From positions 1 to 41,301 of the forward strand of contig QKAK01000120.1 of the NCBI GenBank assembly GCA_003247225.1: a DNA stretch of 41,301 nucleotides, in the 5' to 3' direction. Source of the DNA: Spirochaetota bacterium. Lineage in GTDB: Bacteria > Spirochaetota > Spirochaetia > Treponematales > UBA12059. Positions 11,510 to 33,432 of the stretch are shown here, piece after piece (the stretch's first letter is position 1; every line of letters begins with the position of its first letter). The notes below the pieces were generated by a model, which was given only the letters and a program-made list of their open reading frames with translations, was not told where the DNA came from and searched no databases. A program made the position numbers and the translations under genes.

Positions 11510-11538
11510 TTGACTACCCCGCCATTGCCCCGTATAAC
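11510..11538 (+). promoter_or_regulatory. sigma-70 promoter upstream of the cobalamin riboswitch
   Basis: TTGACT (11510-11515), a 17-bp spacer and TATAAC (11533-11538): the best sigma-70 match in the window. Predicted start about 11545, immediately before the riboswitch. Confidence 0.75.
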
Positions 11539-11544
11539 GGTCAT

Positions 11545-11725
11545 ACGCCGAGGTTCGGCGAGCCGCCCGCGCGGCCCGCCGCCAAGAGGGAATCCCGTTA
11601 GAATCGGGAGCGGACCCGCCGCTGTAACCGGATACGACGATCGCACTAAGCCACTGGCCCGCTCGGGGCCGGGAAGGCGCGACCGCCGGACGACCCGGGA
11701 GCCAGAAGACCTGCCCAGGCGATTC
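11545..11725 (+). ncRNA. cobalamin (AdoCbl) riboswitch
   Basis: Conserved blocks of the cobalamin riboswitch occur in the right order: AAGAGGGAAT (11584-11593), the GACCCGCCGCTGTAACCGG core (11613-11631), GCCACTGG (11650-11657), GGGAAGG (11671-11677) and the closing AGCCAGAAGACCTGCCC near 11700-11716. The B12-box is the last block. It lies between a strong promoter and the tonB reading frame, so vitamin B12 sufficiency should lower TonB expression. I see no T run after it, so the expression platform is more likely to hide the ribosome site than to terminate. Confidence 0.93.
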
Positions 11726-11859
11726 TTTCGCGCGGCACGAGGTGAGCCGCTCGCGACGCGTAGCGCGGTCGAGGCTCCGGGCTCCCCATGGCCCGATACC
11801 GGCCCTACCCTCCGCAGCGCGACCCCGCCCGTCCCGCCGATCCGTGCGAGGTATCGCGG

Positions 11860-15786: not shown

Positions 15787-18243
15787 ATGTCCCGAAAACC
15801 ATCCGTTCGCGATTCCTTGCGCTTCGGCTTCAAGCGCTTCACGGGAACGCCTATAGAAATCGACCTGAAGCCCTATGCCGACGTCGTCGCCGAGGCCCGC
15901 CTAGCCGATCTCTGCGGGCTAGGCGACGGCGCCATCCTGGAAAGGGCGAGGACGCTGCGAGCCGCGATAGCGGCGTCGGCGGACGCCTCGGCCGGGCGGA
16001 CGTCCGGTTCGGCGCCCCTCCGTGACGGACGCGGCGGCATGGCCGCCTGCATCGCGCTCGCCGCGGAGGCGTGCCGCCGCGGCCTCGGGCTAGAGCCGTA
16101 CGAGGAACAGCTGATAGCGGCCTCGGCGATGTGCTCCGGCAAGGTCGCCCAGATGCAGACCGGAGAGGGTAAGACCCTAGCCGCCGCGGTAGCCGCCGCC
16201 TATTGCGCCATGCGCGACGGCGGCGCGCACGTGATTACGGCCAACGACTACCTGGCGGGGCGCGACGCCGAGTGGATGCGCCCGATCTACGAGAGGCTCG
16301 GGCTCACGGTAGCGTCCGTGCGGAGCGCGGATCGCCTCGTCGAGCGACGGGCCTCCTACGGGGCGGACGTCGTCTACCTGACGGCGCGCGAGCTGGGTTT
16401 CGATTACCTGCGTGACGGGATGGCGTACCGGACTGACCGGCTATCGCTGGCCGTCTTCCGCTCGGCCATCGTCGACGAGGCCGATTCCATCCTGATAGAC
16501 GAAGCCAGGGTTCCGCTCGTCATAGCGGGCGACGACGGGAGCGGGGGGCGCGGAGCGGACGTCGCGGCGGCGGACCGCGCGGTCAGGTCGCTGTCCGAGA
16601 CGGTCGACTATGCCGTCGACGCGGAAGGCCGCAAGGTATCGCTGACGCTCGAGGGACAGCGCAAGGTGGAGGCGGCGCTCGGCGTCGGGGGCATGCACGA
16701 ACCGGAGGCGGCTCCCCTGTTCGCGCGGGTTCACGCGGCCCTGCACGCCCATCGCCTTCTTTCCCGCGACGTCGATTACGTCGTCATCGACGGCGAGGCT
16801 CGCCTCGTCGACGCGTTCACGGGCCGAGTCGCCGACGGGCGGAAATGGCCGTGGGGAATCCAGGCCGCCGTCGAGGCGAAGGAAGGCCTCGAGACCGGCT
16901 CCGAAGGCCGCATTTACGGTTCCATCACCACGCAGCACCTGATGGAGCTGTACCCGCGCATCGCCGCGATGACGGCCACCGCGGAGCCGGCCGCGCCGGA
17001 GCTGTCGGAGGCCTACGGCATGGGAACGGTCATCATACCGCCGGTAAGGCCGTCGAGGCGGCGCGACGAGCCGGACGAGGTATTCTGGAGCCGTCAGGCG
17101 AAGCTGGAGGCCGTCGCGGCCGAGATTTCGTCCGAGCACGGGCGAGGGAGGCCCGTGCTCGTCGGTACCGCCTCGGTCCTCGAGTCGGAGGAGCTGGCGG
17201 CTAGGCTGGACGAGGCGGGAATTCCGTACGCGCTCCTCAACGCCAAGAACGACGAGGCGGAGGCGGCGAGCATAGCGGCCGCCGGACGGCGCGGCGCCGT
17301 GACGATATCCACGAACATGGCCGGCAGGGGCACGGACATACGGCTGGGCCCCGACCCGGAACTGCCCGGGCTCGGAGGGCTCTACGTCATCGGCACCAAC
17401 AAGCACGAGTCCCGCAGGATCGACGACCAGCTGCGCGGCCGGGCCGGCAGGCAGGGCGACCCCGGCCTGACCCGGTTCTTCGTCAGCCTCGAGGACGAGC
17501 TGTTCGCGCGGTACGGCGTCAGGGATTTCCTGCCGGAACGGTACGGGTCCCGGCCGGAGCGCGAGGACGGGCCCATAGACGACCCCGTCGTTCGCAGGGA
17601 AATAAACCGCGCCCAGGCGATAATCGCCGGAGAGAACGCGAAGATACGCTCTGCCCTGCGCAAGTACTCGATGATCGTGGAATACGACCGCAGGTACGTC
17701 AGGCAGCTGCGCGACGCCGCCCTCGTCGCCATGGAATTCCCGGAACCCGTCGAGGCGGCCCTCAGCCGCGACGGAGGCCGGCCCGTCGTCGAGGCGGCGA
17801 GGAAGGAGCTGGCTCGGCGCTTCCTGTCCAGGCTCGACGACGCCTGGGCCGACCATCTCGCCTTGGCGGAGGACGTGCGCGAAGGCATCGGGCTGCGCCG
17901 CTGCGCCGGCGAGGACCCCGAGCTCGAATTCATCGGGACCCTCGCCGAGGCGTTCGAGTCGAGGATGCGGGAACTCGTCGACGCGACCGTCCTGGACGCC
18001 GGGGCTATGGCCGAGGCCGGTTCGGCCGCCGCGGGACGCTACGAGGTTCCTCCCCGTCCGGCGACGACCTGGACCTACGCCGTCGAGGAGGACGCCGGCC
18101 CGGCCTTCAAGCCGGGAGCGTTGTCGGATATCGGCGCGGCCGCGCTCGGGCCGCTGGCCCTGCCCCTGTTCCTCATCGCGCGGGCGGCCGGATCGATCCC
18201 CCGGCGCGAGAGGAAGGGCGAGCGACGAGGCCGACCGGGCTGA
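15787..18243 (+). CDS. SecA2-like preprotein translocase ATPase
   Basis: An 818-aa DEAD-like SecA ATPase, shorter and more divergent than housekeeping SecA (about 850-950 aa). The Walker A region reads QMQTGEGKT (123-131), followed by VITANDYLAGRDAEWM. DEAD box VDEADSILIDEA is near 228, and the second motor domain has NMAGRGTDIRLG and DQLRGRAGRQGDPG near 546. Helical scaffold and wing regions follow. The C-terminal zinc-binding tail (CXCXSGX8C/H-C) of canonical SecA is absent; instead residues about 776-805 form a hydrophobic stretch (IGAAALGPLALPLFLIARAA) before a basic end, possibly a membrane-binding tail. An accessory SecA with few clients is the best reading. No SecY2 or client gene is adjacent; a small membrane protein precedes it. 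The ATG has GGGAGGA nine bases upstream. Confidence 0.88.
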   Translation: MSRKPSVRDSLRFGFKRFTGTPIEIDLKPYADVVAEARLADLCGLGDGAILERARTLRAAIAASADASAGRTSGSAPLRDGRGGMAACIALAAEACRRGLGLEPYEEQLIAASAMCSGKVAQMQTGEGKTLAAAVAAAYCAMRDGGAHVITANDYLAGRDAEWMRPIYERLGLTVASVRSADRLVERRASYGADVVYLTARELGFDYLRDGMAYRTDRLSLAVFRSAIVDEADSILIDEARVPLVIAGDDGSGGRGADVAAADRAVRSLSETVDYAVDAEGRKVSLTLEGQRKVEAALGVGGMHEPEAAPLFARVHAALHAHRLLSRDVDYVVIDGEARLVDAFTGRVADGRKWPWGIQAAVEAKEGLETGSEGRIYGSITTQHLMELYPRIAAMTATAEPAAPELSEAYGMGTVIIPPVRPSRRRDEPDEVFWSRQAKLEAVAAEISSEHGRGRPVLVGTASVLESEELAARLDEAGIPYALLNAKNDEAEAASIAAAGRRGAVTISTNMAGRGTDIRLGPDPELPGLGGLYVIGTNKHESRRIDDQLRGRAGRQGDPGLTRFFVSLEDELFARYGVRDFLPERYGSRPEREDGPIDDPVVRREINRAQAIIAGENAKIRSALRKYSMIVEYDRRYVRQLRDAALVAMEFPEPVEAALSRDGGRPVVEAARKELARRFLSRLDDAWADHLALAEDVREGIGLRRCAGEDPELEFIGTLAEAFESRMRELVDATVLDAGAMAEAGSAAAGRYEVPPRPATTWTYAVEEDAGPAFKPGALSDIGAAALGPLALPLFLIARAAGSIPRRERKGERRGRPG

Positions 18244-31900: not shown

Positions 31901-32158
31901 AGGAACAACCTCGGAGCCGCCCTGTACCGCGTGGCCGAGCGCATGGGAGACACGAAGCGGCGCGCGGAGGCGATGGTCGAATTCACCGAATCGGCCAAGC
32001 TATACGACTCCTTGGCGCGCGACCAGATGAGCATGGCGAGGCCTGAATCTAAGAACCTCGGCTTCCTCAACCTGGACTTCATCCTACACCCCCAGCGGGG
32101 CATGGATCTCGTCATCTATAAAGCGATACCGGTCGAGATGGATTATCCGAGGAAGTAG
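28936..32158 (+). CDS. large acidic/TM/TPR protein with a frameshift (flagellar collar-like)
   Basis: A protein of about 1073 aa if one frameshift is repaired. Frame one (28936 on) gives MPTLQDIERFKASLKTLGKE and a very acidic, Pro/Glu-rich linker with recurring F-x-V-P-D-S-L-L-E motifs. Near 29590-29610 the frame shifts by one base, and the same acidic pattern (ADEFSFDDLESLEGE) goes on to 32158. After the linker come a helical domain, one membrane helix (about 30430-30530, ILPVLQVLLLVAAGAGAVFY) and many TPR units (LSRFGESLELFERADDEW, QYPRAEAMYERLLSRWPK, and later). An N-terminal conserved patch, a TM helix and TPRs recall spirochaetal periplasmic flagellar collar proteins such as FlcA of Borrelia; I infer this and cannot verify it. 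The shift is not at a long homopolymer, so error or true decay are both open. Confidence 0.75.
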
Positions 32159-32192
32159 CGCGTCGCGAGGATGGATCGATTACGGTTCGCGT

Positions 32193-32212
32193 CGCGTTCG
32201 CGAATGAACGCG
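32193..32212 (+). terminator. hairpin after the TPR gene
   Basis: CGCGTTC (32193-32199), a six-base loop and GAACGCG (32206-32212), 35 bases after the TPR stop. A T run is missing, so this may be a weak terminator only. Confidence 0.35.
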
Positions 32213-32301
32213 CGTCATACAGAAGCGCAACCCACAATAAAAAAAGTGTTTTCTATGGGCGATACTGGGATTGAACCAGTGACTTCTACCGTGTGAAGGT
32301 T

Positions 32302-32448
32302 CGGCAAGCGCAACCCACAATAAAAAAGGCGTTTTTGGTGGGCGATACTGGGATTGAACCAGTGACTTCTACCGTGTGAAGGTAGCACTCTCCCGCTGAG
32401 TTAATCGCCCACCAAAAACGCCATATGTAGGGAGGGTTGCGCTTGCCG
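32302..32448. repeat. inner 147-bp palindromic tRNA unit
   Basis: Terminal inverted repeat CGGCAAGCGCAACCC (32302-32316) / GGGTTGCGCTTGCCG (32434-32448), 15 of 15 pairs. Then 11 unpaired bases on each side, then GGCGTTTTTGGT (32328-32339) / ACCAAAAACGCC (32411-32422), 12 of 12 pairs, continuous with the acceptor stem of the enclosed tRNA. On the minus strand the second arm is followed by six Ts, so the whole tRNA lies in the loop of a terminator-like hairpin. Confidence 0.8.
32336..32410 (-). tRNA. tRNA-Val (anticodon CAC)
   Basis: The minus strand folds as a complete tRNA of 75 nt: acceptor GGGCGAT/ATCGCCC, D arm with CTCAGCGGGAGAG, anticodon stem CTACC/GGTAG with loop TTCACAC (anticodon CAC, codon GTG), T arm ACTGG-TTCAATC-CCAGT, discriminator A and encoded CCA. 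It resembles bacterial tRNA-Val in sequence. The acceptor stem continues without a break into a 12-bp flanking helix. A CCCTACAT string lies 5' of both copies and might be a -10 region. Confidence 0.93.
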
Positions 32449-32510
32449 CGCACTCTCCCGCTGAGTTAATCGCCCATAGAAAACACTATGTAGGGAAGGT
32501 ACGCTTCATG

Positions 32511-32799
32511 CGCGCGCTCCCGCTGAGAGACCAGATACTAGCTTTGACGGCGGGTGCATGTCAACATCTTCACGGCCTTGGCGTCGAAAGGTCACAGCGC
32601 CATTCCGTAGTCAGGAATAGCGCATTGACGATTATCAGTGTATTAAATAGTAGACGACATGGTATAGAGCGATAGAACGAAGGAACCGGCCCTCTGACTA
32701 TTCGCCGATAGCGCAAAGACTTGTTTTTTTAAATAATCCGAGCTCTATTTTGGTTCGCTTCTTGCATGTGATAGCGTAGAACGATTTGCAAGGATGCAT
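32511..32799. other. intergenic region with possible third tRNA remnant
   Basis: GCGCTCCCGCTGAG (about 32513-32526) follows the outer unit and resembles the D-arm side of the nested tRNAs, so it may be a remnant of a third, older copy; no matching left half is visible. The rest is AT-rich without a gene. Candidate promoters for the downstream gene are TTGTTT-N17-TCTATT near 32720-32750 and TTGACG-N17-TAGTAG near 32630-32660, both unproven. The ORF on the minus strand at 32698-32892 has no support. Confidence 0.4.
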
Positions 32800-33432
32800 A
32801 TGTCCGACGTACTGAGAACCAATAACGCTATAACCATTACTCGTCCATGGTCCTCCGAAATGAGGACGGAACTCGTACGCAAGAGCATCCACTTATTGAT
32901 CGGCCTCGTCCCGACCCTGGCGTCGTGGAATTTCGGCGTGACGGTCTCGCTGCTATCCGCGGGCGTCCTGGTCTACGCGTACAGCGAATCGATGCGGCTT
33001 CACGGCTACGAAGTAGCGGTCATCAGCAAGATCACCGCTATCGCCGCCCGCAGGCGTGACTCCGGAAAATTCGTGCTCGGCCCGGTGACCCTCGGTATCG
33101 GCGCCCTGCTGGCGCTGGTGCTCTATCCGGAGCCGGCGGCTTCCATCGCCATCTACGCGCTGGCCTTCGGCGACGGCCTGTCCAGCCTCGTAGGCAAGGC
33201 GTTCGGTTCGATACGCATCCCCTTTACCGGCGGCAAGTCGGTCGAGGGCAGCCTTACCTGCTTCTTCGCGGTCCTCTGCTCGGCCTACGCCGCCACCGGC
33301 GACGCCCCCCGCTCGGCCCTGATCGCCGTCGTGGCGACCGTCACCGAGGCTCTTCCGTCCAAGGACGCCGACAACATCCTGTTGCCGACCGTCGTCGGGC
33401 TCGCCGCCGTCCTCGTCTTCGGCGCGGCCTGA
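32800..33432 (+). CDS. diacylglycerol/polyprenol kinase family protein (SEC59/CTP-dependent)
   Basis: A 210-aa membrane protein with about six helices, of the phosphatidate cytidylyltransferase-like family that includes dolichol kinase SEC59, phytol kinase and yeast DGK1. The start of the core is RTELVRKSIHLLIGLVP; the conserved cytoplasmic loop reads FGDGLSSLVGKAFGSI followed by GGKSVEGSLTCFF, the CTP-binding signature. It likely phosphorylates a lipid alcohol using CTP in the inner membrane. The ATG at 32800 sits six bases after AAGG and is preferred to the ATG at 32794. It is convergent with the next gene. Confidence 0.87.
   Translation: MSDVLRTNNAITITRPWSSEMRTELVRKSIHLLIGLVPTLASWNFGVTVSLLSAGVLVYAYSESMRLHGYEVAVISKITAIAARRRDSGKFVLGPVTLGIGALLALVLYPEPAASIAIYALAFGDGLSSLVGKAFGSIRIPFTGGKSVEGSLTCFFAVLCSAYAATGDAPRSALIAVVATVTEALPSKDADNILLPTVVGLAAVLVFGAA

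Follow-up and report, generated by a model that had tools for sequence, protein, structure and literature searches.

The tRNA-Val(CAC) gene of a group of uncultured spirochaetes, this one among them, appears to renew itself by nesting new copies of itself inside old ones, an explanation in four steps to which, taken as a whole, we give a probability of roughly 0.7. In the step that we regard as established, the gene, which in this order commonly has no separate terminator, forms a terminator-like hairpin by pairing of its leader with its trailer, followed by U residues. In the second, which is strongly supported, a unit of 100-150 bp (terminal inverted repeat, arm, tRNA, arm, T run, terminal repeat) would have been inserted several times into the resident copy, in the anticodon stem after nt 26 with replacement of TA or, more rarely, in the T arm. 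Third, each insertion would destroy the old tRNA and supply a complete new one, and because the complete tRNA arrives as the old one breaks, the insertion would be self-rescuing; the old promoter would then drive the new copy through a leader built of fossil 5' halves, while the 3' halves would decay behind the new terminator. Fourth, and most tentatively, the unit may enter as a DNA hairpin or cruciform through a site- or structure-specific activity acting in trans, and not by reverse transcription.

The window, by which we mean the whole 41,301-nt stretch of DNA analysed, comes from a 3.38-Mb draft genome (G000) that is about 95% complete. As the first-pass annotation had described, an intact tRNA-Val(CAC) gene (32339-32410, minus strand, as are all features of the locus) lies within a 147-bp unit (32302-32448), a near-identical version of which is present in three congeners. 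This inner, youngest copy is the only tRNA that ARAGORN and Rfam call at the locus, and it has the cloverleaf, anticodon and score (RF00005, 64 bits) of a functional tRNA. Read on the minus strand, the unit consists of a terminal repeat (32434-32448), the leader arm GGCGTTTTTGGT (32411-32422), the intact tRNA, the trailer arm ACCAAAAACGCC (32328-32339), six Ts that form a terminator-like tail (32322-32327) and the second terminal repeat (32302-32316); the two terminal repeats are perfect inverted repeats of 15 bp, and a T run is present in most arm-bearing relatives. The unit interrupts a second, older copy of the same tRNA: nt 1-26 are found at 32450-32475 and nt 29-72 (44 nt) at 32256-32299, so that the outer tRNA breaks after 26 nt and restarts at nt 29, with the intervening TA swapped for the tips of the unit. 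The order of the whole locus on the minus strand is promoter, D-arm fragment, inverted-repeat leader, AGTGTTTTCTAT, nt 1-26, the 147-bp unit, nt 29-72, ATAGAAAACACT and seven Ts.

The outer copy had been said to share the architecture of the inner one. This holds for its arms, an inverted-repeat pair at 32476-32487 and 32245-32256, and for its T run (32238-32244), but its terminal repeats are imperfect. The spacers had likewise been called conserved, and the outer 3' spacer is indeed nearly identical to the inner one; however, this likeness probably arose by local conversion, and some neighboring tRNA halves also look converted to each other. A hint of a third level proved sound: a D-arm fragment of the oldest copy (32512-32527; CTCAGCGGGAGCGCGC then GCATGAAGCG) ends in the same GC..GC junction as the younger levels and sits immediately downstream of a sigma-70-type promoter (TTGACA-18-TAGTAT, 32564-32535). 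This promoter, the only promoter-like site within 32100-32800, is conserved in congeners and, lying upstream of all levels, is taken to be the original one. Elsewhere the window holds a cobalamin riboswitch (11534-11732, plus strand, 109.9 bits) and a gene for a second, divergent SecA-like protein of 818 aa (15787-18240, plus strand), whose motor region shares ~44% identity with the main SecA of the host genome (G000:C216) and of relatives and which has near full-length matches only in two other genomes (G009 and G018).

The same nesting recurs well beyond this locus. At least a dozen other genomes, belonging to three families of one spirochaete order (f1, f4 and f5), carry nested tRNA-Val(CAC) genes with up to four levels, while close relatives carry a plain single gene. 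Within the window's genus nesting is seen in G000, G002, G003, G005, G006 and G007, and in the rest of f1 in G010 and G011; f4 contributes G033, G053 and G062, and f5 contributes G051 and G157 at the main site and G111 and G139 in the T arm. Both kinds of nesting occur in G010, and G006 has four 5' halves in series ahead of the intact 3' part. At the main site the split is always tRNA 1-26, unit, 29 onward in linear count, and the junction GTGC/GC...CG-A-N/CC (slashes mark the insertion boundaries) is common to all three families. Wherever both sides are preserved there, the left side reads GAGAGTGC/GC and the right side CG A N/CCTTCACAC, so that the TA of the anticodon stem is replaced; G010 has a variant, GTGC/AC on the left and AAG/CC on the right. 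The junction pattern CTCAGYGGGAGAGTGCGC matched in 7 of 394 genomes of the order, against none for the reversed control, and a longer pattern was found in only four species across the genome_contigs collection, all spirochaetes (one 'Spirochaetes bacterium', two 'Spirochaetales bacterium' and one labelled Treponema denticola). Those nested genomes that have named records are all draft metagenome assemblies, and contigs break at the locus in G006 and G011, as would be expected if the nest were an assembly artefact of a palindromic region. We consider this most improbable: the architecture is repeated in many assemblies with differing arms, arms intact on both levels and ordered labels. With the junction recurring in other families and an RNA fold at z = -7.5, the nested structure is far beyond chance.

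Further traces of tRNA-Val(CAC) lie near or resemble such nests. In f5, a third 3' half (AGATA/CCTTCACACGGTAGAAGTCACT) is found close to the nested tRNA (L127 of G157, and L255), and in G207 (L122) a tRNA-Val(CAC)-like copy is followed ~180 nt on by another whose 5' half is damaged, a pair that may represent another stage of the nesting process.

Within one genus, empty sites and a ladder of levels can be seen. The arm GTATTTTTTGT (level 3) is innermost and intact in G002; GTGCTTTTTAT (level 2) is innermost in G007 and split in G006, and the related arm AGTGTTTTCTAT is split in G000; GGCGTTTTTGGT, or a sequence one base off (level 1), is innermost in G000, G003, G005 and G006. Since the genus appears as a star in the concatenated tree, a phylogenetic ladder was dropped and the order is read from the levels themselves. 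The nested order is imperfect in G006, where the right-hand halves run R1, R3 and then, across a contig end, R2. In most single-copy genes of the order, 38-62 nt separate the promoter from the intact tRNA; in the nested genes of the window's genus this distance is 99, 111, 116, 154, 206 and 233 nt, and the promoter is always outermost. These lengthened distances indicate that the promoter stayed at the place of the first gene and that roughly 60 nt of leader were gained per event. Gene order is kept throughout f1 (ProRS, two ORFs, membrane protein, tRNA-Val, TPR protein), and ProRS and the membrane protein also adjoin tRNA-Val in f4; from this synteny we conclude that a single orthologous locus hosted the nesting events. 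Leaders can be aligned from one level to the next, and those of the inner and outer copies in G011 are almost the same, which argues that each unit was copied from the gene itself.

Are the arms under selection, and what might they do? In the window the inner pair (GGCGTTTTTGGT with ACCAAAAACGCC) differs from the outer pair (AGTGTTTTCTAT with ATAGAAAACACT) at five positions per side, and every difference is compensated. That this pairing is selected, as the first-pass annotation proposed, is borne out across the order. Counting as paired those genes in which at least 8 of 13 positions match between leader and trailer, 52 of 90 intact tRNA-Val(CAC) genes, from families f1, f4 and f5, are paired, whereas swapping trailers between genes (1000 rounds) gave a mean of 5.5 and a maximum of 13; family f3 had none among 8. 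In an unselected set of 39 distinct f1 and f4 sequences, two-sided pair changes occupied 143 cells compared with 44 after shuffling, a value that none of 500 shuffles reached, and the signal was lost when the partner was shifted by 1-3 columns. The acceptor-stem extensions are thus an order-wide covarying feature of the tRNA-Val(CAC) gene, and single-copy relatives usually bear them. They are not a general trait of host tRNAs, a notion we rejected, as the other tRNA loci examined in the host genome have ordinary downstream terminator hairpins. No conventional terminator was found in the region of tRNA-Val(CAC). The 104-nt RNA of the inner copy, the source of the z-score above, folds at -49.4 kcal/mol, and the stable stem, the U run directly after it and the conserved pairing are those of an intrinsic terminator. 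As leader and trailer pair, adding about 12 bp to the acceptor stem, and U residues follow, the tRNA becomes the loop of its own terminator-like hairpin, in line with the earlier proposal, and judged by sequence the extensions are best read as a terminator stem. Like bacterial intrinsic terminators, the hairpin has a G+C-containing stem and then a U run; it differs from them in that a complete tRNA forms its loop and the tRNA leader supplies the 5' strand of its stem.

We then come to how the unit moves. The annotation had suggested that it may be mobile or may have been duplicated through its palindrome. There is good support for repeated insertion at a single exact site; on the other hand, neither DNA search nor palindrome pattern found further copies in the host genome, and an inverted-repeat scan of a 368-kb sample showed no related palindrome family. 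With no copy outside this locus in the genome, the unit does not count as a dispersed transposon, and we rejected that candidate; phage carriage was also rejected, as viral contigs contained no exact match to the unit. Absence of other genomic copies had been named in advance as counting against the nested-unit reading, together with relatives having a plain, armless tRNA; the first is what we observe, the second mostly is not.

One might still suppose a MITE- or REP-like element with a tRNA as cargo, moved in trans by RAYT/Y1 or another transposase, spreading between species and targeting tRNA-Val. The unit does resemble MITEs in having 15-bp perfect terminal inverted repeats, in coding for no protein and in its length (147 bp, within 70-300 bp), and its site specificity and the other small palindromes inserted in dead halves fit such an element. 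Between G000 and either G003 or G006, the level-1 leader matches at 36/38 positions, while their intergenic DNA has only the similarity of shuffled sequence; this favors the same supposition, though the identity suggests either recent spread between species or a constraint on the transcribed leader. Unlike MITEs, however, the unit is undispersed, being found at one locus without a second genomic copy, carries a functional tRNA, has terminal repeats that vary between levels and shows no target-site duplication, the TA at the junctions GTGC/GC and CGAN/CC being replaced and not duplicated. Y1 transposases are common in the family; one was found in G002, G005, G006, G007, G010 and G011 but not in G000 or G003 (95-96% complete). 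The flanks of ten Y1 (RAYT) genes contain other palindromes or none, those of the unit being absent, and we set a RAYT link aside as unlikely; no viral contig has the unit either. Overall, we regard this origin as unlikely. Far less probable still is retro-insertion, in which the terminated hairpin transcript would be reverse-transcribed and put into the gene. The limits of the unit are roughly those of the transcript hairpin, but it continues past the T run of the terminator and takes in the right terminal repeat, and the reverse transcriptase family RVT_1 was detected in none of the 8 draft genomes of the genus, which, within draft completeness, largely refutes this route.

In-situ duplication during replication deserves more weight, and we consider it possible, although we would not favor it. 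Here the long hairpin would stall the fork, and breakage or slippage within the tRNA loop, repaired through a template switch on the sister copy, would duplicate 5' and 3' halves in tandem at once, requiring no mobile element or dedicated enzyme. Confinement to one locus and the outcome itself, tandem 5' halves plus tandem 3' halves, would follow directly; new units look like older local ones (G011, G062), in G002 the flank downstream of the outermost copy is similar to the inner unit's right terminal repeat, and breaks at hairpin tips would suit both the anticodon stem and the T arm. Generic slippage, however, gives no reason to expect replacement of the same two bases in all three families, microhomology between nt 26 and the unit start is not evident, and the end of the insert coincides precisely with the foot of a perfect inverted repeat. 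The exact shared insertion site argues for a specific activity, and the local origin of the units for copying in situ through the hairpin; the palindrome may be the cause of duplication. For the self-nesting explanation as a whole, the sequence differences between terminal repeats of different levels and the lack of target-site duplication at the junctions are points against. A bolder version, which we offer tentatively, would make the tRNA gene a selfish homing unit whose hairpin is recognized by a cellular or parasitic activity and inserted at a fixed self-site between and within genomes, replacing the resident harmlessly.

Short palindromic units inside genes are also known from GTAG/CGTC REPs and Rickettsia palindromic elements (PMC3733652). 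REPs occur in many copies of 20-40 bp with a conserved sequence and no cargo, whereas the tRNA unit is a single-locus, self-inserting element of 147 bp that carries a whole tRNA and no GTAG or CGTC tag common to all levels. Genomic islands and phages with tyrosine integrases likewise enter tRNA genes with function restored, but they rebuild one tRNA end by an att repeat; our insert, too small for an integrase, brings a whole new tRNA and leaves the old one permanently split. Dada DNA transposons of animals also insert target-specifically in tRNA genes, but are eukaryotic and protein-coding and do not carry the tRNA they disrupt (PMC3706591), while the unit brings its own. In agreement with the annotation, which knew of no such element, a limited literature search found no description of nested tRNA genes of this kind, nor of self-insertion of a gene copy at one exact point for any gene.

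The dead 3' halves hold further short palindromes (L004 1652-1861, L066 1-400, L008 1617-1780 and L124), such as GCGCCTG-GGTA-CAGGCG, GCGTTCGN-CGAACGC and GTCAATCGTACTCGATTGAC, some of them common to several genera, and a decayed tRNA appears to be a hotspot for palindrome insertion. Another tRNA gene may have a hotspot of the same sort at L067 480-800 (G005:C276), where a repeated block that includes GTTCGCCGAAGGCGAAC and ACTACAACAACATTCCACTCGGCGCCG adjoins tRNA-like GGGGCCCACCTGGACTTG sequences.

Altogether, the results suggest a gene that stacks up its former copies as a layered fossil record at one site, by repeated insertion into itself in several lineages, with its function kept. It would offer a natural, datable system for insertion of hairpin DNA without a known transposase, and the same question arises for CGTC palindromes, which are reported for Spirochaetes, also without a known transposase (PMC3733652). 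A terminator that encloses the tRNA would, moreover, tie tRNA folding, processing and termination into one helix.
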